From Candidatus Brocadiaceae bacterium S225 (GTDB lineage Bacteria > Planctomycetota > Brocadiia > Brocadiales > Scalinduaceae), in contig SMSL01000006.1 of NCBI GenBank assembly GCA_007859995.1, forward strand, positions 62,001 to 126,000: a stretch of DNA of 64,000 nucleotides. Direction: 5' to 3'. Below, piece by piece: positions 41,353-60,977 of this stretch. Position 1 is the first letter of the stretch. Each line of letters starts with the position of its first letter. Below the pieces are notes generated by a model. The model saw only the letters and a list, made by a program, of their open reading frames with translations, had not been told where the DNA came from and made no database searches. Position numbers and translations under genes: made by a program.

Positions 41353-42906
41353 GTGGTTGTATCTATAAAAAAGACTGGAGTTAATCTTTTGCTTGATAAA
41401 GCTGAGTTAAGATCACACAATCTGGTGCACATTCTATCAAATATCGGTAGTCCAGATATCCTGTTAATAGGGGATTTTATGCTTGATAAATATGTATGGG
41501 GTGAGGTCAAGCGCATATCACAGGAGGCACCAATACCTGTACTGAATGTAACATCCGAGGAAATAAGGCCTGGTGGTGCAGGAAGTGTTGCGAATAACCT
41601 TGCACAACTAGGGGCTAATGTCTGTTGTTATGGTGTGATTGGCAATGATGATGAGGGCAGGCGGTTATTAAATAATTTAAATGGTATTGGAGTAGAAACG
41701 GACGGCATTGTACAGGCTTCGGATAGGCCAACGACCGTAAAGGTCAGAATGATGGGCCATCTTCAATCAGCGGGGAAAGGAATTCAACAGCTTTTAAGAA
41801 TTGATTATGAAAAGGTCGATGACATTGAAGATGAGATACAGGATGAAATTATCAGTAAGATAGAGAGCAAGGTTCAACATGTTGACATAATATTGATATC
41901 CGATATGAATAAGGGTGTTCTGTCCTGCCGTATTCTTGAAACGGTTATCAGATTGGGTAAAGATAATAACGTGCCGGTGATAGTCGATCCGAGGCTTTCA
42001 AATGATTATACAATTTATAAGGGCGCAACGGCAATTACACCTAACCGTTTCGAAACAAAACTGGCAACCGGGATTAAAATAACAGACGTTAACAGCATGA
42101 GATCTGCTGGAAAGAAGTTGTTGGAAGAGTCTCTCTTTGAGTATGTTATTATAACGGCTGATAAGGATGGAATGTTTTTGTATAGAAATGACGGATCATG
42201 TGATCTAATACCTACTGTGCCTAAAGATGTTTACGATGTCAGTGGCGCAGGAGATATGGTTTTGAGTGTTTTTGGTTTTGTGGTAGGAAGTAAGAGTAGT
42301 TTTGAAGATGCGGCAATGATTGCAAACATTGCCGCCGGGATAGAGGTTGGTAAGATAGGTGCCGTTCCAATTAGTAAGAGTGAGATACTGAGTGAACTTA
42401 TGGGAGGGTCAAATCCTCTTTATACAAAAATTAAAGTTTTGGATGAGTTGGAAAAAATACTCAATGATCGCAGAGGACGTAACGAGAGAATTGTGTTCAC
42501 GAATGGATGCTTTGACATACTTCATGTCGGTCATATAGAATATCTTAAATTTTCAAGACAACAGGGTGATGTGCTGGTAATTGGCTTAAATACTGACAGG
42601 TCTGTAAGAGAGCAAAAAGGTGAACAGAGGCCTTTTGTTTCTGAAGATGAAAGAGCAAGGTTAATTTCTGCGCTGGAAGACGTAAGCTATGTGATTCTTT
42701 TTGACGAACTAACACCTGATAAACTAATAAAAAGACTTAAACCGGACGTCCTTGTAAAAGGGGAAGATTGGAAAGAGAAAGGGGTGGTAGGCCGTGAATT
42801 CGTTGAATCTTATGGCGGTAAAGTGATTTTGGCTCCCTTTGTTAAAAACGCTTCAACAACTGATATTGTTACAAGGATTATAGAACGGAATAATAATCTG
42901 CGGTAG
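41353..42906 (+). CDS. hldE: Bifunctional heptose-7-phosphate kinase/adenylyltransferase HldE
   Basis: HldE phosphorylates D-glycero-D-manno-heptose 7-phosphate at C1 and later activates heptose 1-phosphate with ATP, for LPS inner core. The N-terminal ribokinase-like domain (residues 1-345) has LIGDFMLDKYVWG, RPGGAGSVANNLA and the catalytic YDVSGAGDMVLS. The C-terminal nucleotidyltransferase starts FTNGCFDILHVGHIEYL near residue 383 with the HxGH motif. At 517 residues it is slightly longer than the enteric protein (477), by an N-terminal extension. The start is GTG. gmhA follows, so the heptose pathway is clustered. Confidence 0.94.
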   Translation: MVVSIKKTGVNLLLDKAELRSHNLVHILSNIGSPDILLIGDFMLDKYVWGEVKRISQEAPIPVLNVTSEEIRPGGAGSVANNLAQLGANVCCYGVIGNDDEGRRLLNNLNGIGVETDGIVQASDRPTTVKVRMMGHLQSAGKGIQQLLRIDYEKVDDIEDEIQDEIISKIESKVQHVDIILISDMNKGVLSCRILETVIRLGKDNNVPVIVDPRLSNDYTIYKGATAITPNRFETKLATGIKITDVNSMRSAGKKLLEESLFEYVIITADKDGMFLYRNDGSCDLIPTVPKDVYDVSGAGDMVLSVFGFVVGSKSSFEDAAMIANIAAGIEVGKIGAVPISKSEILSELMGGSNPLYTKIKVLDELEKILNDRRGRNERIVFTNGCFDILHVGHIEYLKFSRQQGDVLVIGLNTDRSVREQKGEQRPFVSEDERARLISALEDVSYVILFDELTPDKLIKRLKPDVLVKGEDWKEKGVVGREFVESYGGKVILAPFVKNASTTDIVTRIIERNNNLR

Positions 42907-42974: not shown

Positions 42975-43544
42975 ATGAAAAAAGAAATTGAATCATCCTT
43001 GAATGAGAGCATAAACATTAAGACTGAACTCCTTTCGAATAGCGTAGAAACAGTTGCTCAAATTGCAAATATATTAATAGAAGCATTCCAGGCAGGTCAC
43101 TCGCTGTTCCTTATGGGAAATGGTGGAAGCGCCGCAGATGCACAACATATTTCCGGAGAACTTGTTGGCAGATTTAAAAAAAATAGAAAACCATTGCCCG
43201 CGCTCGCACTAACCACAGATACCTCTGTGCTGACAGCAATTGCTAATGATTTTGGATATGATCACTGTTTTGAGAGACAGGTAGATGCATTTGTTAAGGA
43301 CGGTGATATTGTCATTGGCTTAAGTACAAGCGGCAATTCATCAAGTATCATAAATGCTGCTCTAGTAGCGAAAGGAAAGGGTGCAAGGACTATTGCCTTT
43401 ACCGGTAAAGATGGCGGCAGGCTTAAAGATCACGTTGATGTATGCCTGGAAATTCCTTCAACAGATACGGCGCGCATACAGGAATGCCATATAACAATCG
43501 GCCATATTCTTTGTTCAATAATAGAAAAAGAATTATTCAAGTAA
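42975..43544 (+). CDS. gmhA: Phosphoheptose isomerase GmhA
   Basis: Converts sedoheptulose 7-phosphate to D-glycero-D-manno-heptose 7-phosphate, the substrate for HldE. At 189 residues it has normal length. SIS-domain motifs: LFLMGNGGSAADAQHISGELVGRF, then ALTTDTSVLTAIAND and GLSTSGNSSSIINA, and the late IQECHITIGHILCSIIE with metal-binding His. It is 68 bases after hldE. Together they show the cell makes ADP-heptose for LPS or glycan. Confidence 0.95.
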   Translation: MKKEIESSLNESINIKTELLSNSVETVAQIANILIEAFQAGHSLFLMGNGGSAADAQHISGELVGRFKKNRKPLPALALTTDTSVLTAIANDFGYDHCFERQVDAFVKDGDIVIGLSTSGNSSSIINAALVAKGKGARTIAFTGKDGGRLKDHVDVCLEIPSTDTARIQECHITIGHILCSIIEKELFK

Positions 43545-46067: not shown

Positions 46068-46420
46068 AGGAACGGGAACAATCGTGAAGTTCATAACAAA
46101 GATGAATTGTGGCCACAAGCGCAAGCATTTTAAGCTTTCCTCGCCAAGGCACGCCTCTGGATGCAAGGGCGGTATTGGACGGGCCGACACATGATGGAGA
46201 GACATATTTTCCGTATGTAGAACAAGTATTGAATACGTATCGATGATTAAAGAGTCGGTTAAAAGAGCATTGTATGATAGTGCGTGTGATAGCAAGGATT
46301 TGAAAGATAAGTTTATTGACAAACTTGGATTAAAAGCAATAATGTAACGTCGCCCTTCGGTTGAAAGGGTGATAAAACGATTGAAGTGTGATTTTTTTCT
46401 GTTTTCTTGGCATCATTTTG
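46068..46420 (+). pseudogene. Degraded transposase remnant, left of the polysaccharide locus
   Basis: No intact frame, but transposase-like pieces read out in different frames: DGPTHDGETYFPYVEQVLN about 46178-46245, IKESVKRALYDSACDSKD then LKDKFIDKLGLKAI about 46240-46345, and SVERVIKRLK about 46356-46385. The last piece closely matches PSVERMIKRLKWD at 59355-59400 (DNA CCTTCGGTTGAAAGG followed by TGATAAAACGATTGAAGTG). The fragment therefore shares an IS family with the remnant at 58690. Stops and frame changes make it inactive. Confidence 0.65.
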
Positions 46421-46812: not shown

Positions 46813-46950
46813 CCGTTTCGTATAAGTATTATATATATAATTGTTGATCAATAAGTCTTAGTCGTCACGGTATTATTTGACGTGCTGTGCGGTATTTTAA
46901 TAGGAAAGATTTTATCTCTTAAAATTATTTGATGGAAGGGGGAATATTTG

Positions 46951-47466
46951 ATGTTAAGAAGATCATATGTTTTTCGGTTGGTAATTGTGTGTGCCTTAGG
47001 CATGTTGCCGTTTTTAGGTCACTCAGGTAGCGTGTTTGCAGCAAATGTTGGAATAATTCAGGGAAAGGTGACTGGGCAGAGGACTAATGCTGCGGTGAGA
47101 GGTGTAGATATACAGATTACAGATTTACAGGGTAAGGTAGTAAAAAATGTCAAGAGTCGGCAAGATGGTACATTCACTGTATCGCAGGTACCAACAGGCC
47201 AATATAACGTAAAAGCTGGTGATGCACCGGCAAAGAGTATACAGATTGCGATGTCGCCACCGGTTACGCAGGTAGATTTTCAGGTGCCGGAAAAGGGTTA
47301 CACCGTATTTGCCGGTACGGGAATGAGTGCGGGGATGCTGGCTATCGTGGGTGTGTCTGCTGCTGCCGCTATTGCTGGAATTGTAATTGCGGTCGATGCC
47401 AAAGATGATGCTGATGACAATGAAGACGAGATAGATGATTTACGCAGACAATTAGCATCACCTTGA
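46951..47466 (+). CDS. Exported Ig-like (carboxypeptidase-regulatory) protein with C-terminal membrane segment
   Basis: A 171-residue protein: a signal peptide (about 1-31, ending FAA), a transthyretin/carboxypeptidase-regulatory-like domain (about 33-115: GIIQGKVTGQRTNAAVRGVDIQI, DGTFTVSQVPTGQYNVKAG), one Gly/Ala-rich transmembrane helix (about 122-147: SAGMLAIVGVSAAAAIAGIVIAV) and a short very acidic tail (DAKDDADDNEDEIDDL). Start ATG 46951 follows AAGGGGG. It has its own promoter and a strong terminator, so it is monocistronic and probably well expressed. Function unknown; a surface or envelope structural role is a guess. Confidence 0.7.
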   Translation: MLRRSYVFRLVIVCALGMLPFLGHSGSVFAANVGIIQGKVTGQRTNAAVRGVDIQITDLQGKVVKNVKSRQDGTFTVSQVPTGQYNVKAGDAPAKSIQIAMSPPVTQVDFQVPEKGYTVFAGTGMSAGMLAIVGVSAAAAIAGIVIAVDAKDDADDNEDEIDDLRRQLASP

Positions 47467-47824: not shown

Positions 47825-48343
47825 ATGCAGAAATTATTCAGAGTAATATTCATTTTTATGGTTTTTCATTGCGGCTTTGCGTTTTCGGATGTTTATGCTG
47901 GGAAATATGATCATAATGATTTCTCGATTGATGTACCAGGGGATTGGGTCAATATGGGTAATGTGCATATAGAAGGGGTAAAGGCCGCATTTACAAAGGA
48001 AGTGGATGCAGAGATAACACCCATTATATTGATTGCAATTGATGGCAGTGTGGGTGGTAGTACAATAGAAAATATCGTTGAAAAGGCGGTAAAAATAGTC
48101 ACCTCTACAATTCCGGATGCCAAATTTCTTTTTGAGCGTGACGTGTACACAGGAAGTATAAAATGGCGTGAAATAATATACCAATATTCAGATGCAGGAT
48201 ATTCATTCCAGGTCGTACAATATCACACCGTAAACAACAAAAAACATTATGCTTTTACTGGACAAAGTCTTCAAACTGACTTTAGAGGATATCTTTCTGA
48301 TTTTAGAAAAACTTTCAATACCTGGAAGTTTAAGGCAGATTGA
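47825..48343 (+). CDS. Exported PsbP/DcrB-like protein of unknown function
   Basis: A 172-residue protein with a signal peptide (about 1-26, ending VYAG) and a single domain with the PsbP/DcrB/DUF1795-like pattern: KYDHNDFSIDVPGDW near the start, FTKEVDAEITPIILIAID, KFLFERDVYTGSIKWREI and, at the end, YLSDFRKTFNTWKF. This fold binds envelope partners in several systems, but nothing specific is known here. It precedes the CsgG-like lipoprotein by about 170 bases. Confidence 0.6.
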   Translation: MQKLFRVIFIFMVFHCGFAFSDVYAGKYDHNDFSIDVPGDWVNMGNVHIEGVKAAFTKEVDAEITPIILIAIDGSVGGSTIENIVEKAVKIVTSTIPDAKFLFERDVYTGSIKWREIIYQYSDAGYSFQVVQYHTVNNKKHYAFTGQSLQTDFRGYLSDFRKTFNTWKFKAD

Positions 48344-48516: not shown

Positions 48517-50394
48517 ATGTCGCATAAAAAAAAACCATTTCCGTGTATTCTGTTTATTCTCGCCGTGTTGTTCATGGTAGTGCCGTTATGCGGTTGTAAT
48601 AAAGGCATTAAGAGATTTGTTAAGAATGAACTTTCAGGCAACCACAATAGTAACGATGTTTCCGCTGAAAAAACTGATATCTTCGGCGACAATGTTGAAG
48701 TTGATAGAGGTGTGAATGAACGGAGCGCTAAAGACGAGGTAAAGTCTCAGGGCATTATACCTGCGGATAAAAATAAAAGAGAAAAACGGTATTTGAAATC
48801 TGTTAATAAAGAACCCTTTTTAACAGAGGGAACAGTAGTAAAGAAAACAACTTCTGTCACCGCGGGTAACGAAAAAACACTCTTGTCCGGGGAAACAAAT
48901 TCAGTATCTGTACATGATGCAGGTAACGGGCAACGTAATGAAGCCGTAAGTGTTGAGGATAAGATTAAAAATCTTGTCAGCTGTATGGCAATGGCAGTGC
49001 CGGTGACGGAGAAATTGAAAGTATCAATAGTTGAGTTTCCCAATTTTGATGGTGAAACTACTGACTTTACCAGGTTCCTGTATGAAGAATTGGTTGTTTC
49101 ATTTGCATCCGATCCAAAGTTTGAAGTTGTGGACAGATTGCATACAATTATTGGCAAGGATAGTGAGGAGATCGATGCAATAGTGACAGGCTCTATTATG
49201 GATCTTCATGACAGCGTTAAAATAAATGCGCGTCTTATGTTAAAGAAAACCGGTTTGGTTTTGACAGCCGTATCAACTACGATGCCGAAGGACAAGGCGG
49301 TGGAAAGGCTCATAGGAAAGAAACGCAAGGTTGTAGCGGCTAAGGCTACAGTGAACAGTCTATACTCTCAAATCGATGATCTTGCAAGGCAGATTGTTGA
49401 TTGCCTGCAGCAAGGCGAAAGATACAAAATAGTATTACTTGAATTTACCGAACTGAATGGCAGAACGAATGCATTTAGCAGATTCTTGTCTCAGGAGTTG
49501 GTTACAAGAATATTCATTGCTGACAGTAAAAGGATTGTAATAGTAGATAACAATCTTGTCGGCAAATTTGTAGAAGAGCATAATATTTCTCTGGACGAGT
49601 TGACCTATCCGGAGTTTTCTAAACAACTTTTCGATTCTCTTGGCGTCAACATTATTACGAAGGGAGTTATTACGGATCTGGGTAACAGCATAAAACTAAA
49701 TGCCCGTATACTGACCGCTGAGACAGGTTCTTTATATGGTGTTGCTGCGATTGACATCGTAAAGGATGAGAAATTAGCAAAACTAATGGGTGAAAACGTT
49801 ATGATCGACAATAATAAGGTTGAGGCTCAAAAAATTAAGATAAAAGAGGGGCACGAAAAGGCGAGCTCTTCGTTCACAAATGATGCTGTCTTTTTTAAAG
49901 AAGATTTCTCTACCTGCGAAGAGGGGCAACCGCTTCCTGAGTGGGGAGAAGGCCTGATTGTAAAGAGGGATAAAGATAATAAATATTTTCTTACATCAGA
50001 TGTTGATAATTTTTCAGTTGCTGCGAGAGAGGTTGATTTCCCTGAAGAGTTTTTCTTTGAATTCGAAGTGAAAGGGAACACTAAGTATTGGAGTTCTATA
50101 AGATTTAAAGATATAGATGGGGATGAGTTTCAGGTGTCGTTCCGGCTTTTCCAGAATTTATTGAGTGTAACATTGCCGGGTCCTAAGCAGGTTAAGACGG
50201 AAGTTGACATAAATAACTATGCCAAGATTAAAATCATTAGAAAGAACAAGTTATACGAATTACATGCGAACGGTTCATTGTTAATAGTGGGTTCATATTC
50301 TAAATACAAAGAATTTAGATCTTTTGAAATTCACAGCGCCTTCAGCAGATTTCAATTTACAGGTTTTATAGGTAATAACTTGGTAGAAAACTGA
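48517..50394 (+). CDS. CsgG/FlgO-like lipoprotein with two repeats and a C-terminal jelly-roll-like domain
   Basis: A 625-residue lipoprotein: the signal ends in lipobox PLCGC (Cys about 27). After a polar linker come two copies of a CsgG/FlgO-like unit (about 180-300: LKVSIVEFPNFDGETTDFTRFLYEEL; about 325-440: YKIVLLEFTELNGRTNAFSRFLSQEL), each ending in an INARLM/LNARIL strand. The last 160 residues (VFFKEDFSTCEEGQPLPEWG... NYAKIKIIRKNKLYELHANG) look like a LamG/DUF1080-type sugar-binding jelly roll. Start ATG 48517 follows AAAGGA and matches the lipoprotein signal; TTG 48436 is rejected. Its stop overlaps the next ATG (TGATG). Confidence 0.72.
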   Translation: MSHKKKPFPCILFILAVLFMVVPLCGCNKGIKRFVKNELSGNHNSNDVSAEKTDIFGDNVEVDRGVNERSAKDEVKSQGIIPADKNKREKRYLKSVNKEPFLTEGTVVKKTTSVTAGNEKTLLSGETNSVSVHDAGNGQRNEAVSVEDKIKNLVSCMAMAVPVTEKLKVSIVEFPNFDGETTDFTRFLYEELVVSFASDPKFEVVDRLHTIIGKDSEEIDAIVTGSIMDLHDSVKINARLMLKKTGLVLTAVSTTMPKDKAVERLIGKKRKVVAAKATVNSLYSQIDDLARQIVDCLQQGERYKIVLLEFTELNGRTNAFSRFLSQELVTRIFIADSKRIVIVDNNLVGKFVEEHNISLDELTYPEFSKQLFDSLGVNIITKGVITDLGNSIKLNARILTAETGSLYGVAAIDIVKDEKLAKLMGENVMIDNNKVEAQKIKIKEGHEKASSSFTNDAVFFKEDFSTCEEGQPLPEWGEGLIVKRDKDNKYFLTSDVDNFSVAAREVDFPEEFFFEFEVKGNTKYWSSIRFKDIDGDEFQVSFRLFQNLLSVTLPGPKQVKTEVDINNYAKIKIIRKNKLYELHANGSLLIVGSYSKYKEFRSFEIHSAFSRFQFTGFIGNNLVEN

Positions 50395-51827
50395 TGTGGA
50401 TTAAACGATATAAAAAGCGCAGCTTGTTGATGGCATTAGTAACTGCTGTTGTTGGCTTTTTACTTTTTGTATCTGACGGCCGGGCTCTAAACGCGGATAG
50501 TGACCCATTCAATAATGCTGTCAGGATAGTCAAGGTAAAAGCCGTTGCAGATGAAGAGTTTAGAAAAAGTCCGAATTGGGTGGAAGAGATAGAGGAAAGT
50601 TTTAAGAGGTCATCAGCTTTCTATGAGGAACAATTCGGTATTAAATTCGAGTTAAAGCAAATTGGTGAGTGGATCTCAGATAATAATACCAAAAATATTC
50701 AGAAGCTTTTAAGGCAATTGAAAGATCAAGTTGGGAAAGAGGGCGGCGATCTTGTCGTCGGGTTTACCAGGCAGAGTACAAATATGGCTGAATGTGTTTT
50801 TAACAGGGCGGCATTAGGGGTTGCATTGCCGTTTAATGATTATGTCTTGGTGAGGGTGAATAAGAATGCAGACTTTAATTACCACGTGATGGCACTGGTA
50901 TTAACCCATGAATTGGGACACGTCTTTGGAGCACTGCATGTCGATGATTCTTCCTCGATCATGAATCCTTCTCTCAATGATAGCAGTATTTTTCGGTTTG
51001 ATGATAATAACAGGGAGTTGATTAAGCTGACAAGGTTTGTGGATTTAGATAAAGGAGTTATGTCTATTAATAAAGAGTATCTTGATCGGATAGTCACTAT
51101 ATACAAAGATAGTCTGAAATATGATTTTGAGAATGCGTCCAGGCACCTGCTGATTGGTTCTATATACAATGATCTGGGGTTTATAGATGAAGCTATTTCC
51201 GCATATAAGGAGGCTCTGAAATTAGATCGGAAAGATCCTGAATCACTTACCCGTCTTGGTATGGCTTATGCCGAAAAAGGCTTATTGGATGAAGCAATCG
51301 CGGAATTAAGCAAGGCCGTCAGATTTGATTCCATCGATGGCGTTGCTCATGTTAACCTGAGTACCGTGCTTGTCAGAAAAAACATGCTGAATGAGGCGGT
51401 GGATCAACTGAAAAAAGCCATAGAGATTAATAATGACAACCCTGACGCACATTGTATGCTGAGTGGGATTTATATTCGGGAAGGACTATTCGATGAGGCT
51501 GTTTACGAGTGTAAACTGGCATTGAAAATACGCCCTGCCTATGCAAATGCTCATTATAATATGGGTATTGCCTATCACGGCAAATTGATGTATGATAATG
51601 CTGTAAGCGCTTACAAGGAAGCTATTAACATTGAAAATAATAACTTGATGGCACGGAATAATCTCGGTATAGCTTACTATGAACAGGGGCTTCTGAACGA
51701 GGCGGAATCGGAATACTTGAAATTACTGCAAATAGATCCGGTTAATGAAATGGCGATTAACAATCTTGAGGCAGTGTTACTTGCAAAAAGGGAGGCGTTA
51801 AGATGCGAGACGGTACGGAAAGATTAA
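50394..51827 (+). CDS. Exported metzincin-type metalloprotease with TPR domain
   Basis: A 477-residue protein: an N-terminal hydrophobic signal (LLMALVTAVVGFLLFV), a zinc protease domain with HELGHVFGALH at residues 172-182 (HExxHxxGxxH) and a Met-turn SSIMNPS at 187-193, both hallmarks of metzincins (archaemetzincin/matrixin-like), then about six TPR repeats (235-465, for example ISAYKEALKLD, AISEL-type units, NLMARNNLGIAYYEQG). Zinc ligands His172, His176 and His182 and catalytic Glu173 are intact. It is translationally coupled to the CsgG-like lipoprotein and overlaps the Wza-like gene by 25 bases, so it belongs to the export locus. Substrate unknown. Confidence 0.83.
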   Translation: MWIKRYKKRSLLMALVTAVVGFLLFVSDGRALNADSDPFNNAVRIVKVKAVADEEFRKSPNWVEEIEESFKRSSAFYEEQFGIKFELKQIGEWISDNNTKNIQKLLRQLKDQVGKEGGDLVVGFTRQSTNMAECVFNRAALGVALPFNDYVLVRVNKNADFNYHVMALVLTHELGHVFGALHVDDSSSIMNPSLNDSSIFRFDDNNRELIKLTRFVDLDKGVMSINKEYLDRIVTIYKDSLKYDFENASRHLLIGSIYNDLGFIDEAISAYKEALKLDRKDPESLTRLGMAYAEKGLLDEAIAELSKAVRFDSIDGVAHVNLSTVLVRKNMLNEAVDQLKKAIEINNDNPDAHCMLSGIYIREGLFDEAVYECKLALKIRPAYANAHYNMGIAYHGKLMYDNAVSAYKEAINIENNNLMARNNLGIAYYEQGLLNEAESEYLKLLQIDPVNEMAINNLEAVLLAKREALRCETVRKD

Positions 51828-52990
51828 TAACCGGAATAACCGGAAAGATACTGGCTATTGTAATATTTAACCTGTTATTCCTCTTTAACAATTTGATACA
51901 GGCACAGCCAGCCAATTGGCCTCCTCAATCTTCAACTGCGAATAAACGTACATCGACATATGTGATGCCGGTTGCAGGAGCATTGCAGGGAGGTCCAAAC
52001 CGGACTTCTTCAATTCTGGGAGAAGACTATTTGATTGGGTCCGGGGACGTGCTTGATATAAAAGTATTTGATTCGGAAGATTTAAATAGAAAGGTGCGCG
52101 TCGGGGGGGATGGTTATATCAGCCTGCCATTGATAGGGAGCATAATAGCCGGTGGTTTAAGCGTTCCGGATCTCGAATTTAACATTGCTTACGAATATTC
52201 ACTGAAGTATCTGAAGGATCCGCAGATATCCGTCTATGTACTGGAGTTTCATAGTAAGAGAGTAGCGGTATTGGGCGAAGTTAAAAATCCGCAGTTGCTG
52301 GAAATGACAAGAAACAAGAGTAATCTGCTGGAGATGATAAGCTTATGTGGAGGCGTTACAAAAGATGCCGGAGATCTGATTTACATAATACGGCCGACTA
52401 CACAATACAACAGTGTCGATAATAACCGTAGCACTGCTCAATATAACGATGGGCGCAACAATGGATATGGCATGGAGGCATATGACAGTGGAGGTGATGA
52501 GGCCGGTTGGGAGGATGAAGACTACCTGCGAATCAGGGATGAGGTTATTACCGTCAGCGTCTCAGAGCTTGTTAAATATCAGAATCCATTGTCAAATGTG
52601 GAGGTTCTTCCCGGTGATATGATAAGCATACCGCCTGCGCCCTTCTATTTTGTATTTGGGGAAGTGGACAAACCCGGGGCTTTTATGTTAAAGCAGAAGA
52701 TGACCGCTTTACAGGCCATATCACAGGCAGGCAAGTTTTCAAACATTGCAAAAAATAAAATTAAGTTGATAAGGGAAGATATCGACACCAGAGAAAAAAT
52801 AATTACCACCCTGGACATCAAAAAGTTGGCAAAAGGAGAAGATGAAGACATAAAGATCATGGGAGGAGATGTCCTTCTTGTCGGCAAGAGTACAATGAGA
52901 GAGGTGCGCGGTCAATTATTGGCTTTCTCAAATACTGCTCTTTCTGCCTTTACATCTGCCTATGCGTACGAATCTGTCCGGGATCGATAG
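51803..52990 (+). CDS. Wza-like polysaccharide export protein
   Basis: A 395-residue outer-membrane-type exporter. A signal (about 14-34) ends in AQA; there is no lipobox Cys, unlike classical Wza. The poly_export domain (YLIGSGDVLDIKVFDSEDLNRKVRVG, SLPLIGSI) is at about 75-155, followed by SLBB-type segments (VAVLGEVKNPQLLEM and, near 285, FVFGEVDKPGAFMLKQKM). Between them is an odd polar insert, Asn/Gly/Tyr/Asp-rich (NNGYGMEAYDSGGDEAGWED). It overlaps the protease gene by 25 bases and precedes the Wzc-like kinase. Confidence 0.88.
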   Translation: MRDGTERLITGITGKILAIVIFNLLFLFNNLIQAQPANWPPQSSTANKRTSTYVMPVAGALQGGPNRTSSILGEDYLIGSGDVLDIKVFDSEDLNRKVRVGGDGYISLPLIGSIIAGGLSVPDLEFNIAYEYSLKYLKDPQISVYVLEFHSKRVAVLGEVKNPQLLEMTRNKSNLLEMISLCGGVTKDAGDLIYIIRPTTQYNSVDNNRSTAQYNDGRNNGYGMEAYDSGGDEAGWEDEDYLRIRDEVITVSVSELVKYQNPLSNVEVLPGDMISIPPAPFYFVFGEVDKPGAFMLKQKMTALQAISQAGKFSNIAKNKIKLIREDIDTREKIITTLDIKKLAKGEDEDIKIMGGDVLLVGKSTMREVRGQLLAFSNTALSAFTSAYAYESVRDR

Positions 52991-53324
52991 TTTTTAGAGT
53001 TTACGACATAGAGTACAAAAGCACACCTGAAGGTTTGCCATACGTATCTCTTTTCGATTCATTCGGTTTAGATGCTTAAAGAGCCGGAACCAAATGTTTA
53101 ACACCTATATTGAGCGATTCTATTCCATATGTTATAGTAGCCGCAGGCTTTAGTCTGCGTGCCCCATCACCGATGGGTGCATGTGTATTCAGTGTAAGGG
53201 TGGATTATGGCGAATCCACCAATAATAGATCATGATTTAAGGTGGATTCGCAATCGCTTAATCCAACCTACGCTAATTTCAAAAGTTGTTGGTTTTTTGC
53301 CTTTTAAAACCTGACCTGACTTCC
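52991..53324. repeat. Intergenic region built of REP-like hairpin repeats
   Basis: This 334-base gap contains at least three hairpins: CGCAGgctttagtCTGCG (53142-53159), CCCATCaccGATGGG (53163-53177) and GGTGGATTatggcgAATCCACC (53199-53220), followed by GGTGGATTCGC (53241) and TTAATCCAACC (53259). The second shares GATGGGTGCA with the stretch near 47640. It is likely a cluster of dispersed repeats. A wzc promoter was not found. Confidence 0.6.
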
Positions 53325-55535
53325 ATGAAAAACGATTCATATCAAAATCAAACCGAAGATTCTTTTTATAATGGAGAAACCGCCTTCCTTGAGGAGATTA
53401 ATCTCAGAGATTACTTTCGCGTGGTAATGCACCGTAAGTGGGTCATTATGGCGATATTTTCAATTACGGTGCTGCTGGTCACACTTTACACGTTCAAACA
53501 GAAGCCTGTTTTCCAGGCCGTTACTACGATCAGGATATATAAAGATGCGCCAAAGGTGCTCTCATTCGAAGATGTGGTGAATACAGGGGGTGGCTTGGCG
53601 GACTTTTACAAGACCGAGTGTGAGGTGCTTCAGAGCCGAACACTGGCCAAGAGGGTTATTAACAGGTTAAGGCTTGATCTGCATCCTGAGTTCATCGCTA
53701 AGCTTAAAACTAAAGAGAGTGATGCTGATAAGCCGGTTAGTGTAGAAAAGCTGGTAACTATTTTTTTGAATATGATCAACATAGAGCTTGTCAGAAACAG
53801 TCAACTTGTAAAACTCAAGGCTGAAACCGGATCACCTGGATTGTGTGTAAGTATAGTAGACACCCTTGCAGATGAGTACATCAAGAAAAATCTGGAAGAC
53901 AAGGTATTAACCACGACAGGGGCGACGGGCGAGATCGGTAAACAACTGAAAGAGATCAAAAAGAGGATAGAAGATTCAGAAAAGGAGTTGTACAAATATG
54001 CGCGTCAGAATGATATTGTGGCTATGGACGCAAGTCAGAATATATTTATGAAAGAGCTGATCACGATTTCAGAGGAATTGACAAAGGCAGAAGCCGTGCG
54101 TATTGCTAAAGAGGTAAGATTCCTGGCAGTGCAGAATAGTGATGACCTGTCATCTCTGCCCGGAATAACAGATAACGTGTTAATTAATGAGTTAAAACTG
54201 GAATATACAAAGCTTCAGGCGAAGTATGCCGGTGAACTTGACAGGGTAAAGGAGGATTACCCGTTGGTGCAGAGGATGAAGGCAGAAAAAGATTTTATCG
54301 AACAGCAGATAAATAGTGAGCAGGGTTGGGTGGCGAAGGCAATTAAGGCCGAATATCAGGAGGCTGTTGGTAAGGAGAGAGGACTTCGGCAACGCCTGGA
54401 GGAACTTAAAAGAGAAAACAATGAGTTGGAAGGGAAATCCATTGGCTATAAGGTTCTGAAACGTGAGGTAGATGCAAATACACTGTTATACGAAGGGCTG
54501 CTTCAAAGGATGAAAGAGGCGGCGGTATCCTCTGAAATCAAGACCACAAATATTCAAGTCGTTGACAAGGCTGTATTGCCAACAACGCCCATTAAGCCGA
54601 AGAAAAAATTGAACGTACTTCTTTCTATGATTGTAGGGTTGACACTGGGAACAGGCATAGCCTTCTTTCTGGAATACCTGGATAATACTATTAAGAGTGC
54701 CGATGATGTCGAGAAACACCTTAAATCTACAGTATTAGGCGTGCTGGAGAAGGTGGCTGTGGATAAGGATGAGGTGCAGAACTTCGATCTTATTTCACAC
54801 GAATTGCCCATGTCAACGTTTGCGGAAGCCGTGCGTAATGTAAGGACAGGTATCATGCTCTCATCTACGGACAATCCCAAGAAAATAATACTGGTCACGA
54901 GTACAACTCCTGGTGAGGGAAAAACATTCGTTGCCGGCAACCTTGCTATCGTAATAGCAAAAACCGGCAAGAAAACGTTGATTGTGGACTGTGACTTTCG
55001 CAAGCCCCGCGTACACAAAGCCTTTAATATCGAGACGATGCCGGGTTTGAGTAATCATTTCGTTGGAGAGGGTGATCTGGACTTAATCATTAAGCCTACG
55101 GCCATACCCAACCTCAGTGTCATCACATGCGGCCTTATACCCCCAAACCCTTCAGAGATGTTGGGATCTCACAGTATGGAACAGTTTTGCATGGAGGTAA
55201 GGGAGAGATTTGATACTGTTATATTTGATACGCCGCCTTCTCTGGCAGTTACCGATACGGTTATCCTCTCTAACATAGTTGACGGAATAATTTATGTAAT
55301 CAAATCAGGTGTGGTTGCAAAAGAGGCAGCTAAGAGATCACTCTCTCAATTTGCAGGCAAGAAGGGTGAAGTATTAGGTGTAGTGATGAATAGCGTAGAC
55401 GTTGCCAAGGGCGGCTATTATCAGTATGGGTATCAGTATGGGTATCAGTATGGGTATGGGTACGGTGAAGATACCGGTAAGAAAAAAGGACTAATAGAGA
55501 GAATGAAGGGAAAAATAAAATTGAAAAATGTTTGA
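53325..55535 (+). CDS. Wzc-like polysaccharide co-polymerase/tyrosine kinase
   Basis: A 736-residue inner-membrane protein of the PCP-2a/BY-kinase type. The Wzz domain begins after ISLRDYFRVVMHRKW with TM1 (WVIMAIFSITVLLVTLYTF), then a long coiled coil and TM2 (LLSMIVGLTLGTGIAFFLEYL). The cytoplasmic kinase has Walker A TTPGEGKTF (near 527), Walker A' LIVDCDFRKPR and Walker B VIFDTPPSL. The C terminus is a tyrosine cluster (GGYYQYGYQYGYQYGYGYG), the autophosphorylation site in this family. Start ATG 53325 is chosen over TTG 53286. It controls chain length and export with the Wza-like protein. Confidence 0.92.
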   Translation: MKNDSYQNQTEDSFYNGETAFLEEINLRDYFRVVMHRKWVIMAIFSITVLLVTLYTFKQKPVFQAVTTIRIYKDAPKVLSFEDVVNTGGGLADFYKTECEVLQSRTLAKRVINRLRLDLHPEFIAKLKTKESDADKPVSVEKLVTIFLNMINIELVRNSQLVKLKAETGSPGLCVSIVDTLADEYIKKNLEDKVLTTTGATGEIGKQLKEIKKRIEDSEKELYKYARQNDIVAMDASQNIFMKELITISEELTKAEAVRIAKEVRFLAVQNSDDLSSLPGITDNVLINELKLEYTKLQAKYAGELDRVKEDYPLVQRMKAEKDFIEQQINSEQGWVAKAIKAEYQEAVGKERGLRQRLEELKRENNELEGKSIGYKVLKREVDANTLLYEGLLQRMKEAAVSSEIKTTNIQVVDKAVLPTTPIKPKKKLNVLLSMIVGLTLGTGIAFFLEYLDNTIKSADDVEKHLKSTVLGVLEKVAVDKDEVQNFDLISHELPMSTFAEAVRNVRTGIMLSSTDNPKKIILVTSTTPGEGKTFVAGNLAIVIAKTGKKTLIVDCDFRKPRVHKAFNIETMPGLSNHFVGEGDLDLIIKPTAIPNLSVITCGLIPPNPSEMLGSHSMEQFCMEVRERFDTVIFDTPPSLAVTDTVILSNIVDGIIYVIKSGVVAKEAAKRSLSQFAGKKGEVLGVVMNSVDVAKGGYYQYGYQYGYQYGYGYGEDTGKKKGLIERMKGKIKLKNV
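55419..55454 (+). repeat. Three-copy 12-base microsatellite encoding the tyrosine cluster
   Basis: TATCAGTATGGG is repeated three times exactly, followed by TATGGG, inside the Wzc-like gene. Each unit encodes Tyr-Gln-Tyr-Gly. Slippage would add or remove tyrosines in steps of four codons without breaking the frame. Confidence 0.9.
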
Positions 55536-55650: not shown

Positions 55651-57204
55651 ATGGCTGATAAACTGATGTTGTCTAAATTCCCAAAGATTGCCGATGCAAT
55701 CATAGAGTGGGGGATTATATTCCTTTTGGTATCGACGCCTCTTGCACTGCCAACGAGGTACGGAACAGTGCATCTCTGGGTATATACCATAATAGAACTT
55801 ACCATATTCTTCCTGATAATAATATGGTTACTAAAGCGGACTATGATTACCGCTGGTTCAAACTCCGCAACTCGCAATCCGCAATCCATCAACCGTTTCG
55901 GTTTTGCAAAGACACCCTTGAATATCCCAATTCTGTTATTTGTTGGGCTTGTCATTTTCCAGCTTGTGCCATTACCATCAAGAATCCTCAACTTCCTTAG
56001 TCCAAATACCCACCATTTATACAGTATGGTATTACCCCTGTACTCGACGGAAAAGTCTGTTCATACGAAACCCGAAACTCGCAACCTGGAACCCGCAACC
56101 CGAACCCTGCAACCCGAAACCCGCACCCCGCAATCGTCAATCCGGTTTCCCATCAGCATATACCCGTATGCTACTAAAATCGAGTTCTTCTTAATCCTTG
56201 CTTACATCGGGATGTTTTTTCTGGTAACGAATACACCGGGTATAAGATTAGATCGTATTATACTTGTCATAATGAGTGTCGGTTTTTTAATCTCATTCCT
56301 GGGAATTCTACAGAAGTTTACCGGAACCTCAAAAATATACTGGTTGATAGATTCGCCTAATGCGAGTCTTTTTGGCTCTTTCATAAATCGTAATCATTTT
56401 GCCGGTTATATTGGGATGGTGATACCACTCTCCTTTGGTCTTCTGATCACAAGATTTGAAAGTATGGCCTTTCATAAGACCATGTCATGGCGTTCAATAC
56501 TTGCAAAATTTGAATCCCGCCTCTTGGGAAACATCTTGATGGTATTTGCCATTATGACTATGGTTTCAGCCCTCTTCATTTCCCTTTCACGTGGAGGAAT
56601 TCTGTCCCTAATGGTTTCAATAATTGTTTTTGTTGCCTTTATCAGCCTTAGCAGGAGAGCAAGGAGCATTGTCGGTAAAGGACGAAAAGTAACCATTACT
56701 ACTTTGTTACTGGCCTTTGTATTTCTGATGTGGCTCGGAGTCGGTTCCATCCTGGAAAGGCTTTCAAACCTTTCGTCACCCTCCAGACACGAAGTTACTC
56801 AAAATACAATTAGCATGGCTGAAGACTTTCCTCTCTTTGGAACAGGTCTTGGCACCTTTCAGTATCATTTCCCGAAATATAAAACCCTAGAAGGACAACT
56901 TTATTGGGACCATGCGCATAATGATTATGCCGAGCTTCTTTCAGATAGCGGCCTTATAGGATTTCTAATAGTAGCATGCGGCATTATTTTTTTTATTTGG
57001 CAGACACTGGTAAGATGGTGGAAAAGTAAAGATCCGTACGTCATGGGAATTACTCTGGGAGGATTTTGTGGTATAATTGCGATCCTCAGCCATAGTATTG
57101 CTGATTTCAATCTGCACATTCCGGCAAACGCCCTTTTCCTCTCCTTTATACTCGGCCTTACCTGGATTGCCGTTAATGCAAAAAGCACGCAAATGGAGGA
57201 ATAA
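55651..57204 (+). CDS. O-antigen ligase/polymerase-like membrane protein
   Basis: A 517-residue polytopic protein with about 10-12 hydrophobic helices. The Wzy_C/O-antigen ligase signature is near residues 255-330 (FINRNHFAGYIGMVIPLSFGLL, LFISLSRGGILSLMVS) and in the HAHNDYAELLSDSGLIGFLI loop, which carries His residues important in WaaL. Two hydrophilic loops contain a Thr-Arg-Asn-Pro-Gln low-complexity insert (TRNPQ, TRNLEPATRTLQPETRTP) that looks like translated repeat DNA (55850-56150). It is downstream of the Wzc-like gene and probably polymerises or ligates the glycan. Confidence 0.87.
   Translation: MADKLMLSKFPKIADAIIEWGIIFLLVSTPLALPTRYGTVHLWVYTIIELTIFFLIIIWLLKRTMITAGSNSATRNPQSINRFGFAKTPLNIPILLFVGLVIFQLVPLPSRILNFLSPNTHHLYSMVLPLYSTEKSVHTKPETRNLEPATRTLQPETRTPQSSIRFPISIYPYATKIEFFLILAYIGMFFLVTNTPGIRLDRIILVIMSVGFLISFLGILQKFTGTSKIYWLIDSPNASLFGSFINRNHFAGYIGMVIPLSFGLLITRFESMAFHKTMSWRSILAKFESRLLGNILMVFAIMTMVSALFISLSRGGILSLMVSIIVFVAFISLSRRARSIVGKGRKVTITTLLLAFVFLMWLGVGSILERLSNLSSPSRHEVTQNTISMAEDFPLFGTGLGTFQYHFPKYKTLEGQLYWDHAHNDYAELLSDSGLIGFLIVACGIIFFIWQTLVRWWKSKDPYVMGITLGGFCGIIAILSHSIADFNLHIPANALFLSFILGLTWIAVNAKSTQMEE
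55850..56150 (+). repeat. Low-complexity CCCGCAAYCC-type repeat within the O-antigen ligase gene
   Basis: Two patches (about 55860-55890 and 56068-56135) of short imperfect units such as CCCGAAACTCGCAAC, ACCCGCAACCCGAACC and CCGCAATCC are in the coding sequence. The units differ in composition from the surrounding AT-rich gene. They encode Thr/Arg/Asn/Pro/Glu loops between hydrophobic helices and look like inserted or expanded repeat DNA tolerated in loops. Confidence 0.7.
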
Positions 57205-57450: not shown

Positions 57451-58605
57451 ATGTCTGGAACAAGATCAATACTCAAACCTGAAATTATAGTGTGGTTATC
57501 TCTCATTGTTATCACAATATTAGTGTCGGTCTTTGCGGTTAAGAATTTGGTCGGTAGTCTCTACTACATTACATGGAAAGATTCGCCTCAGAAGGCTGAT
57601 GACAGTGTGTCGGTACTGGAAGAAAAAACAGCAAAACTTATTCCCTCTAATTCAAATTCATTTTATGAACTCGGAAGGCATTATCGTAAGATAGCATATA
57701 CTGCAGTTTCCGATGAGGAACGGACAATGGGGTTTAATCTGGCTGAAAAATACCTTATAAAAGCTATATTACTACAACCTGGCAATAGCTACTATCTGTC
57801 TGAATATGCGCGAGTTGCCGGAGGCATGGGAGACATTGACAGGGCGATAAAGTATTTTGAAATATCAGTATCTTTGTCAAAAACCGATGCGGTTATACAC
57901 TCGTTATATGCAAGCTGGTCTTTAAATAATGCTAAAAAAATTTTCAGGATTGAGGATCTGGACTTTCTTGTGATGATGTACAAAAATCCTGAGGAAGTGG
58001 TCCCCTTTTATGAGGAACGGCTGATAGGAGGAATCATGGTTAAAATGTTTATTAGTATTGCCGAACGAGAATGGGGTGAGGCATTGCGGTTAGGTATTCG
58101 CAAGAGCCGAAGTACATACAGAAACCTTGGTGACTTGTATTTGATGACGTTCAGGCCTGATAAAGCGATCGAAAATTATAAAAAGTCAGGAGACAGCATT
58201 AGATTGATAAATAGCTATTTCGTGGAACAGGATTTTGATAATGTTTTTAATCTGGTTAAAAACCTCATAGAAACTAACAATCGTGTCTTCTGGTCAAGAT
58301 GGGACGAAATCAGGAAGCTTCTTAACAAGGCCGCTGTCTTTGACTTGGGTGGCTATGAGGCATACTATTGGCTAGGTAAAGGATATTATCAACAATACAT
58401 GTTTGAAGAGGCTATTGAGAATCTAGAAAAAGCAACTACCCTGAAACCTGGCCATGTTGATGGCCATTTCTTCCTTGCTAAATCATATGAAGCAGTAAAA
58501 AAAACGGACATGGCTATTAAAGAATACACAGAGGTTTTAAAGATAAAACCAGGCCACAAAGAAGCAACTGTACAGTTAGGCAACGCCATTAAAAGCAAAT
58601 TATAA
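57451..58605 (+). CDS. Membrane-anchored TPR protein
   Basis: A 384-residue protein with one N-terminal transmembrane helix (IIVWLSLIVITILVSVFAV, about 12-30) and a TPR-rich outer part (for example LAEKYLIKAILLQPGNSYY, DIDRAIKYFEISVSL, YYQQYMFEEAIENLEKATTLK, DMAIKEYTEVLKIKPGHK). There is no catalytic motif. It is the last gene of the polysaccharide locus, 246 bases after the ligase gene; TPR proteins at this place often scaffold export or polymerisation (inference). Confidence 0.75.
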   Translation: MSGTRSILKPEIIVWLSLIVITILVSVFAVKNLVGSLYYITWKDSPQKADDSVSVLEEKTAKLIPSNSNSFYELGRHYRKIAYTAVSDEERTMGFNLAEKYLIKAILLQPGNSYYLSEYARVAGGMGDIDRAIKYFEISVSLSKTDAVIHSLYASWSLNNAKKIFRIEDLDFLVMMYKNPEEVVPFYEERLIGGIMVKMFISIAEREWGEALRLGIRKSRSTYRNLGDLYLMTFRPDKAIENYKKSGDSIRLINSYFVEQDFDNVFNLVKNLIETNNRVFWSRWDEIRKLLNKAAVFDLGGYEAYYWLGKGYYQQYMFEEAIENLEKATTLKPGHVDGHFFLAKSYEAVKKTDMAIKEYTEVLKIKPGHKEATVQLGNAIKSKL

Positions 58606-58689: not shown

Positions 58690-59440
58690 ATGTCAAAGAA
58701 GCAGGAGAAAATATCTACTATTTTACAATAAGATATGAGTTTTTAGAAAAGATAGCAGAAGATTTCAATACACCAAAAAGTTCTCCTGCCGGAGCAAATG
58801 GGATGACAATAGAGCAGGTGGTAAGGGTCGCAATTTTAAAGCAGCTACGTCAGTTAGGCTATGAGGAACTCTACGATGAATTGAATGATAATATAAGTTA
58901 CAGGCGTTTTGCAAAGATCCATAGAGGGAGAAGTGCCAAAAAAAATGACGTTGAGTGAAAATATTAAAATAATATCACCGTCAGGATGGGAATAAATACG
59001 CAAGGTAGCAATAAAAACTGCAAAAGATCTGGGTGTGGAGAGTAATATACATCATCCGACTGATGGAGAGTTATTGTGGGATTGTGTAAGGGTAATAGAT
59101 TGCATAATAGAAGGAGTAATCTGCAAGGAAGGACATGAGATGGATTACAAAGGAATGTGTTATAAAAATGAAAAATTCATTTATTATGCTCCAACGGATA
59201 CAGATGGTGAATCCGTGTGCTCAACATGCTCTCACCAGATAGAGTGCTGTCCCAATTCGTTAACTGGCAGGAAGGTTAATATATCGTTTGGATTGTTGCC
59301 TCACATAGACACAGAAGACCCTCCGATGGCAAAGAGATTCAAGGCAATAATGACACGTCTCCCTTCGGTTGAAAGGATGATAAAACGATTGAAGTGGGAT
59401 ATGAGTGATGATCGTTTAAGCAAAAGAGGTAATCTTGCTT
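58690..59440 (+). pseudogene. Degraded transposase remnant, right of the polysaccharide locus
   Basis: A plausible start (MSKKQEKISTILQ) at 58690 meets an in-frame TAA after 13 codons, then continues as DMSFLEKIAEDFN and MTIEQVVRVAILKQLRQLGYE to a second stop near 58958. The frame resumes as KDLGVESNIHHPTDGELLWDCVRVID (about 59020-59105), typical of IS transposases, with a Cys-rich part (VCSTCSHQIECCP) and TRLPSVERMIKRLKWD. No intact catalytic frame remains. It shares the PSVER segment with the remnant at 46068. The IS family name was not determined. Confidence 0.78.
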
Positions 59441-59441
59441 T

Positions 59442-60977
59442 TCAGACCTCTTGTCTATCAAGTTTTCCCAGAATATTTTCCTTCTTAATACGAAACTTTT
59501 CATTGCCCGGCATAATATTCAGGGCATTCTCCACAGAGTACAGCGCCTTCTCGATTTCTCCTTTCTCTGCCATGGCACAAGCTAGATTAAAATGTGCCTG
59601 GCTATGTTCCGGCATAACAGCCAACAATTCTTTATACAACCCGATGCACTCATCGATCAGTCCCTGATTCCGAGCCATTGATGCCAACTGGAAGAGCGTA
59701 CCTGAATGCCCTGGACTCAGTGCCAGGGCATCCTGAAATCTCTCAATAGCGAGATCGATCTGTCCGAGTTTTTCGAGGGTCTTGCCACATTCATAATGAA
59801 GTTCACAGTTATCAGGGTCCTTCTCTAAAGCAGCGACAAGTGCATTCAATGATTGGACAGAATTTTCAACCGGCTCCTGGCCACGAAGTATTTCCAGCCT
59901 TTTCCTTGCAAGTTCAAAATCAGGATCAATATCTAATGCTTCCATATATTGCTCTTCGGCCTCATCAAAAAGATTCTCTCTTTCAAGGTTTATTCCGTAA
60001 TTGTAACGAAGTGTATGCCTTCTTGGATTATGATGAATGGCTTCAACAAAAAGGTGCCTTCTCCGGTCAAAAGTTCCACTCTGTCGCTCAAGTATCTGGG
60101 ACAGATTGTTGTACGCTCCCGTGTATGTAGGATCCATTTTAATTATTCTTTCATATATCTCGCCTGCTTCCTGCATTCTGTTTAATCGGTACAACGCAAT
60201 TGCGAAATTAAAGGCCGCCCTGATATTCTTTGGAGAGATTTCATAAGCGCGTCTTAATACCTTTTCTGCTTCTTCCGCTTGTCCCAGTTCCAGGTGCACC
60301 ACCCCGAGTTCGCAAAGTGTATTATCATCAAATGGTTGGTCTTTAAGTTTGTCATATCCAATTTGCAGGTACAGTTCCTGTTTTTTCTTTAAGGACTCCG
60401 GGCCCAATATATTGCCATAATGGTGTATCGGTATGTCAGTGGTTACTATCCGCTTTTTTCGAGACAAGAGATCTATTTCCACCTGTTCATGTACTCTACC
60501 CTTAAAACGAATTTGCCTATTATTCCTGAAAAGTCTAACGAGATGAGAAGTAATATAACCATGGCATCCACGGGCAAGTTCCGTTTTTTTCTCCAGGGAT
60601 ATCCAATCTGCACATGTACTCTGTTTCAGATATGTGCGCTGCACCAGGCGATATGCGTCCACATTTTTTGCGACTATTAATTGCCTGATACGAGAGTGGT
60701 CATTGACATCAAGTGCCTCATCTCCATCCAGGACCAGGATCCACTCACCGGTAGCATATTTAAGTGATTCATTCCTGGCTGAGGAAAAGTCATTGTTCCA
60801 GGGAAAAGCATGAGTTATAGCTCCATGTGACTGAGCTATTTCCTTAGTCCTGTCAGTAGAACCGGTATCGACTACTATAATCTCATCTACCAGAGTCAGT
60901 ACGCTTTCCAGGCAAGAGTTAAGATTCGCCTCTTCATTTTTTACAATCATACAAAGTGAGAGTCGGTTTTTTTTCAT
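59442..60977 (-). CDS. TPR glycosyltransferase, family 2
   Basis: A 511-residue protein. The N-terminal 230 residues are a GT-A glycosyltransferase: RLSLCMIVKNEEANLNSCLES, VDEIIVVDTGSTDRTKEIA and the metal-binding WILVLDGDEAL. The C-terminal half has about seven TPRs (NLSQILERQ, EEQYMEALDIDPDFELARK, AIERFQDALALSPGHSGTL). Such fusions resemble glycosyltransferases that modify proteins or flagellin. It overlaps the upstream TPR gene by 44 bases, so the two are one unit. Its stop abuts the transposase remnant; the C terminus looks natural. Confidence 0.88.
   Translation of the reverse strand: MKKNRLSLCMIVKNEEANLNSCLESVLTLVDEIIVVDTGSTDRTKEIAQSHGAITHAFPWNNDFSSARNESLKYATGEWILVLDGDEALDVNDHSRIRQLIVAKNVDAYRLVQRTYLKQSTCADWISLEKKTELARGCHGYITSHLVRLFRNNRQIRFKGRVHEQVEIDLLSRKKRIVTTDIPIHHYGNILGPESLKKKQELYLQIGYDKLKDQPFDDNTLCELGVVHLELGQAEEAEKVLRRAYEISPKNIRAAFNFAIALYRLNRMQEAGEIYERIIKMDPTYTGAYNNLSQILERQSGTFDRRRHLFVEAIHHNPRRHTLRYNYGINLERENLFDEAEEQYMEALDIDPDFELARKRLEILRGQEPVENSVQSLNALVAALEKDPDNCELHYECGKTLEKLGQIDLAIERFQDALALSPGHSGTLFQLASMARNQGLIDECIGLYKELLAVMPEHSQAHFNLACAMAEKGEIEKALYSVENALNIMPGNEKFRIKKENILGKLDRQEV

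Follow-up and report, generated by a model that had tools for sequence, protein, structure and literature searches.

A metzincin-TPR gene directly before a Wza-type export gene suggests a protease dedicated to a polysaccharide exporter in some anammox bacteria

In the 64,000-nucleotide stretch of DNA analysed here (the window; Candidatus Brocadiaceae bacterium S225, contig SMSL01000006.1), an otherwise ordinary locus for the export of a sugar polymer contains, directly before the gene for its Wza-type outer-membrane polysaccharide export (OPX) protein, a gene for a metzincin fused to tetratricopeptide repeats (TPRs). This position suggests a protease dedicated to the export machine. A third gene, encoding a CsgG-like protein, precedes the other two (Table 1). 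Comparison with related genomes shows that a core of this kind carries two distinct additions: the CsgG-like protein, in seven anammox genomes examined, and the metzincin-TPR protein, in four, are each attached to the OPX locus on their own and independently of one another. The reading that we tentatively favour, with somewhat less than even confidence, is that of an OPX/Wzc/Wzy_C locus in which the CsgG-type component would be HfaB- or PelC-like, and the metzincin-TPR protein would be an accessory envelope protease dedicated to this OPX clade.

The three reading frames overlap by 1 base (in the sequence TGATG) and then by 25 bases, as had been reported in an earlier note on this DNA; the equal production of the three proteins, which the note had read from this overlap, does not follow from it. 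Its description of the gene products as a double CsgG/FlgO-like domain protein, a zinc protease with TPRs and a Wza-type channel belonging to a Wza-Wzc export locus agrees with the domain matches given below and in Table 1. The OPX, Wzc-type, Wzy_C and TPR protein genes together are most likely, judging from their domains, a Wzy-type (Wzx/Wzy-type) polysaccharide export locus.

The metzincin-TPR protein was searched for in 62 genomes of the order Brocadiales, 38 of them of high quality, at a threshold of E <= 0.001, and was found in four (two of the high-quality ones). Three of these, namely the window genome (G000; assembly of 2.96 Mb, with the window on contig C6), G008 and G010, are among the 13 genomes of the genus Scalindua, while the fourth, G028 (Ca. 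Loosdrechtia), belongs to another family. In all four carriers, and in both families, the metzincin gene adjoins the OPX gene on its 5' side, the two genes overlapping by 25, 16 and 1 bases in the Scalindua genomes and being separated by 286 bases in G028; Pfam bears out the Wzc-type, Wzy_C and TPR neighbours at all four metzincin loci, that of the window included. OPX proteins of the same clade, as delimited at E <= 1e-60, were present in five of the 62 genomes, i.e. the four carriers and G020. That the metzincin accompanies this OPX clade in four genomes out of five supports a dedicated protease, and among the loci examined the fusion to TPRs was found next to OPX genes only.

Several observations weigh against this reading. 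The OPX clade is present in G020 with no match to the metzincin. The protease is rare in the order, and its presence in only four of 62 genomes (two of 38 of high quality) implies that it is not a general requirement for export; moreover, three of the four cases come from a single genus, and the completeness of G000 is 79%. The metzincin fold lacks a confident structure model (see below), and the listed frames of G008 and G010 extend 53 and 33 residues, respectively, beyond the N terminus of the window protein, so that the protein may be either secreted or membrane-anchored. Finally, a separate M48-TPR lipoprotein-like protein is encoded on contig C16 of G000, and a duty of the metzincin like that of BepA, the TPR-bearing protease of E. 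coli, could therefore be partly redundant.

The CsgG-like protein has a wider distribution. Its profile matched ten of the 62 genomes at E <= 0.001, weak matches included. The seven strongest were examined: each has an OPX gene no more than about 7 kb from the CsgG-like gene, and Wzc-type and Wzy_C genes, identified by Pfam, are present at all seven loci; the remaining matches (G058, G037 and G014) are outside this count, and the OPX-neighbour profiles were built in part from the same sequences. The order CsgG-like/metzincin-TPR/OPX is not unique to the window genome, being found in three of the 13 genomes of the genus, and it is close-packed in all three Scalindua loci that have the metzincin. 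Its recurrence, together with the low dN/dS ratios given below, makes it more than a chance arrangement. However, the CsgG-like gene and the protease gene are separable. In G028 the protease gene precedes OPX, and the CsgG-like profile finds nothing in that genome; conversely, a CsgG-like gene close to OPX, Wzc-type and Wzy_C genes was found in G020, G045, G042 and G053, none of which gave a match to the metzincin. An obligatory CsgG-like/protease pair was rejected for this reason. The coupling of the two proteins proposed in the earlier note is consequently supported only in part; a coupled CsgG-like/protease/OPX trio within Scalindua is possible. The OPX match in G053 is split over two frames (L059:1695-2656), through either a frameshift or an assembly error.

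A coupled trio would act as one unit: a surface protein would be exported or anchored, in the manner of HfaB, by a ring of the CsgG-like protein, and would be matured by the metzincin. The close-packed order in the three Scalindua loci and the presence of two small secreted-looking proteins just upstream of the trio would be in keeping with this, but the same five genomes, one with the protease and OPX only and four with the CsgG-like protein and OPX only, argue against it, and both small proteins are also conserved in G020, a genome with no metzincin match. We consider such a unit unlikely. More generally, the arrangement might serve to process or anchor a surface protein or glycan during export, as suggested in the earlier note. 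The surface matrix of anammox bacteria shapes their biofilms (PMC7482068), and anammox surface glycoproteins are on record (PMC5088730, PMC10202920).

The assignment of the metzincin-TPR protein is based on several converging matches. The metzincin part covers approximately residues 44-215, with the zinc-binding motif HELGHVFGALH and an SIM Met-turn, and is followed by TPRs at approximately residues 247-470. Reprolysin_5 (49.5 bits against a cut-off of 27, E 8.1e-13), Peptidase_M10 (E 7e-06) and Reprolysin_3 all exceeded their Pfam cut-offs, with TPR models following. When residues 1-239 were searched alone, the same three families were recovered, and M48 was not matched at E <= 0.1. The best profile match of the metzincin part in PDB was a venom metalloproteinase, at E 0.0085. 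The HExxHxxGxxH motif and the Met that follows it are invariant in all four aligned metzincin-TPR proteins, of which the other three are 64, 62 and 51% identical to that of the window, so that the protease motif is indeed conserved. From its sequence, the protein is predicted to be an active zinc protease; its location in the envelope, its docking partner and its substrate are likewise predictions.

In the structure model, the TPR blocks are mostly predicted with pLDDT 88-97, while the metzincin blocks reach only 26-66, with an order of helices and strands compatible with a metzincin. A Foldseek search with this low-confidence protease model gave TPR-type proteins, judged by their titles, among the 50 best matches. 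It is conceivable that the TPRs are the working part, forming a periplasmic polymer scaffold as in PelB, and that the metzincin is vestigial: the TPR region is the best-modelled part, Pel export uses a TPR scaffold (PMC12141448), and in one distant relative (L022/L061) HExxH is replaced by HSFGH. On the other hand, the catalytic motif is intact in four of four proteins, and in comparisons within the genus the metzincin domain has a ratio of nonsynonymous to synonymous substitution rates (dN/dS, NG86 method) of 0.11-0.20, which makes a vestigial protease improbable. The corresponding values are 0.15-0.19 for the full metzincin-TPR protein (dS 1.2-2.3 for the domain and the full protein) and 0.11-0.22 across the CsgG-like, metzincin and OPX pairs (dS 0.97-2.3), all of these ratios being rough because dS is near saturation; metzincin pairs with G028, which gave no usable dS, were left out.

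The arrangement of an N-terminal zinc metalloprotease and a C-terminal TPR region is shared with BepA, whose M48 protease is directed by the TPR to its partners in outer-membrane assembly (PMC7950410). BepA differs in belonging to M48, whereas the window protein is a metzincin, in acting on the assembly of outer-membrane proteins, and in having no known link with a polysaccharide export locus. With a division of labour as in BepA, the TPRs of the accessory protease proposed here would dock and its protease domain would probably cut a protein at the exporter. In the more specific form of this proposal, the metzincin, docked by its TPRs on the OPX apparatus, would proteolytically control the assembly, the opening or the cargo of the export channel in some anammox bacteria; we regard this as possible, though on the unlikely side. 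A conserved, TPR-docked protease encoded immediately ahead of the OPX gene would suggest that a Wza-type exporter is controlled by proteolysis.

As a strict analogue of BepA, the metzincin could instead serve quality control only, clearing away OPX or CsgG-like rings that have stalled or been wrongly assembled, and taking no part in the maturation of exported protein. The layout shared with BepA (PMC7950410) and the link of the metzincin to one OPX clade can be quoted in favour of this role, which nevertheless appears doubtful to us, considering that the genome already encodes an M48-TPR protein of a general kind and that the metzincin is missing from one of the five genomes with the OPX clade. 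M48 genes were found in all eight genomes searched, and the presence of an M48-TPR protein elsewhere in the window genome indicates that the metzincin comes on top of this protein rather than in its stead.

Relatives beyond the order were sought in a sample of 392 Planctomycetota genomes and, outside this phylum, in two pattern scans of named genomes. Metzincin matches were obtained in 15 of the 392 genomes, of which three belong to the order and the other 12 are distant (best E 2.7e-17). The pattern HExxHxxGxx[HD] is present, in any frame, in six of 13 distant loci (two of these loci belonging to one genome), and its last residue is His in all six. Four distant matches from three genomes (L060-L063) were examined with their 19-kb surroundings: their metzincin domain is related to that of the window, one of them being without the zinc motif, and none of the four showed an OPX neighbour (profile, E <= 0.01) or TPRs (Pfam, E <= 0.01). 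The relative with HSFGH, encoded in G221 (L061:9011-11812), carries an NPCBM domain and is possibly, from its sequence, a pseudo-protease.

The last of the alternatives is that of a secreted degradative protease whose only link to the exporter is the shared operon, and which acts outside the cell. The N terminus is signal-like by eye, and the relatives elsewhere in the phylum have no OPX neighbour in the four loci examined; set against this, the metzincin adjoins one OPX clade in two families and is fused to TPRs only at OPX among the loci examined, and we find this alternative very improbable. Of the two pattern scans, that made with a single sequence returned 27 stretches and no relative, while that made with the metzincin alignment returned two loci, in Candidatus Scalindua sp. 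OFTM180 (L016) and Candidatus Loosdrechtia aerotolerans (L017). The profile of the CsgG-like protein matched seven of the 392 genomes at E <= 1e-15, six of them of the order and the seventh being G228; in G228 and in G037 the match covers one domain only.

The CsgG-like protein has two CsgG/FlgO-type domains (approximately residues 145-280 and 281-425) and a further C-terminal domain (approximately residues 456-625). The Pfam match to FlgO exceeds the cut-off (26.7 bits against 22.6, E 5.5e-06) over the short stretch 216-260. Comparison of domain 1 with domain 2 by hhalign, using seven homologues, gave 99.8%, and among these homologues FlgO was matched in all seven and CsgG in four (E <= 0.1); a solved FlgO-domain protein matched at E 5.9e-06. 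A Foldseek search with the structure model (mean pLDDT 42.8) gave LpoB as the best match (E 3.8e-06), followed by GNA1162 (3.2e-04), CsgG (5.0e-03) and PelC (1.7e-02), interspersed in the ranking with unrelated proteins, among them ribosome-assembly factors; because of these intervening matches, the call of a CsgG-superfamily fold rests first on the sequence profiles, by which the protein is a member of the CsgG/FlgO/LpoB/PelC superfamily. By eye, the window protein has a signal peptide and an LCGC lipobox, whose cysteine (C27) is kept in the three Scalindua proteins and is absent from the G045 and G053 homologues. The C-terminal 170 residues can be aligned in all seven homologues. Their only Pfam matches, 3keto-disac_hyd (best E 0.016) and DUF1583_N (best E 0.01), are sub-threshold and were obtained for three of the seven homologues, none of which is among the three Scalindua proteins, so that no family was reached and the sugar-binding-like character attributed to this region in the earlier note is not established.

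The CsgG/FlgO-type protein would be the outer-membrane-associated part of the exporter, working like HfaB or PelC. HfsD, to which the first of these is linked, is a Wza-type OPX protein. HfaB, a CsgG-like outer-membrane protein, anchors the holdfast polysaccharide of Caulobacter; its placement depends on HfsD, and it presumably makes contact with the exporter of this polysaccharide (PMC6707917). The likeness is one of analogy only, and the window protein differs in its two CsgG/FlgO-type domains and its extra C-terminal domain, with the metzincin-TPR protein added. In the Pel system of Pseudomonas (PelC-PelB-PelA), a lipoprotein, PelC, forms a twelve-subunit ring on the TPR protein PelB, and a periplasmic enzyme is likewise found at the polysaccharide exit (PMC12141448). 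The Pel system is, however, synthase-dependent, with a beta-barrel, and its enzyme PelA acts on the glycan (PMC12141448), while the window combines OPX, Wzc and Wzy_C with a protease. A literature search, which reached few subscription papers, showed, among the matches listed, no metzincin or metalloprotease with TPRs at a polysaccharide export locus. To our knowledge, the accessory enzymes known at polysaccharide exporters act on the glycan.

In the OPX protein, Wza_C, the C-terminal outer-membrane helix that marks OPX class 1 (Wza proper), was not matched by Pfam, the only method applied, either in the whole protein at E <= 1 or in the last 79 residues at E <= 0.1; the OPX classes have been defined with the aid of fold recognition as well (PMC9603273). 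An XrtA/PEP-CTERM locus was considered and rejected, as there is no exosortase in the locus and the NCBIfam cut-offs were not reached (pepcterm_export, PrsT, pepcterm_TyrKin, pepcterm_ChnLen and PEP_O_lig_1 all scored below them). Exosortase genes were found in G000 on another contig (C26) and in G010 both on C13 and on the locus contig C45, about 60 kb away; none was found in G008 or G028.

Table 1. Genes of the export locus in the window and the evidence for their assignment.
Gene product	Position	Strand	Evidence and conservation
Small secreted-looking protein	46948..47466	+	CarboxypepD_reg (transthyretin-like) domain, Pfam 2.6e-09; aligned in three Scalindua loci and G020
PsbP-like secreted-looking protein	47825..48343	+	Conserved in three Scalindua loci and G020
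Lipoprotein-like protein, two CsgG/FlgO-type domains and a C-terminal domain	48517..50394	+	Pfam; hhalign; Foldseek on low-confidence model; lipobox by eye
Metzincin followed by TPRs, N-terminal signal or anchor sequence	50394..51827	+	Pfam; alignment; structure model
OPX (Wza-type) polysaccharide export protein, Poly_export and SLBB	51803..52990	+	Pfam; alignment
Wzc-type chain-length regulator/tyrosine autokinase	53286..55535	+	Pfam Wzz, GNVR, AAA_31; NCBIfam eps_fam over cut-off
Wzy_C (O-antigen ligase/polymerase-like) membrane protein	55651..57204	+	Pfam Wzy_C 4.6e-22
TPR protein of the export locus, in all four metzincin loci	57451..58605	+	Pfam TPR in the window, L013, L014 and L015

The two small proteins encoded just upstream accompany the CsgG-like gene in Scalindua and in G020, and neither was found by profile in L015, L057, L058 or L059. 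The first has a Gly/Ala-rich hydrophobic segment and a C-terminal Ser-Pro, conserved in all four aligned loci, which together are perhaps a sorting or anchoring tail. For the second, the L014 homologue matched PsbP just under the Pfam cut-off (E 1.7e-04), while the window copy gave no Pfam match. Comparison by eye with L014 indicates that the Wzc-type gene is likelier to start at an ATG at about 53325 than at the listed TTG. A scan for promoters and terminators gave results at chance level (39 found against 37.4 expected, and 11 against 10.1).

In both Scalindua relatives, a NusG-family gene lies upstream of the cluster (L013:17244-17732, minus strand; L014:7111-7599, plus strand), the L014 copy being identified by Pfam (1e-20) and the L013 copy by eye. 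The best tblastn match of this gene in the window was only at E 0.31, and a specialised antiterminator may have been lost or moved in the window genome.

The export cluster is flanked by a 65-bp direct repeat, 89% identical, whose copies (46328-46392 and 59336-59400) are 13 kb apart. The right copy lies inside the frame 59035-59667, which has a weak match, far under the cut-off, to an ISNCY transposase; the cluster may therefore be bordered on both sides by remnants of a single insertion sequence. Upstream of the cluster, at a distance of a few kb, Pfam identified a protein with PfkB and cytidylyltransferase domains (41353-42906) and an SIS_2 protein (42975-43544), which we take to be HldE-like and GmhA-like, respectively, and thus possibly ADP-heptose synthesis genes. 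On the other side of the cluster, the gene at 59442-60977 (minus strand) encodes a glycosyltransferase family 2 domain fused to TPRs, and adjoins that of a 676-residue TPR protein (60934-62964).

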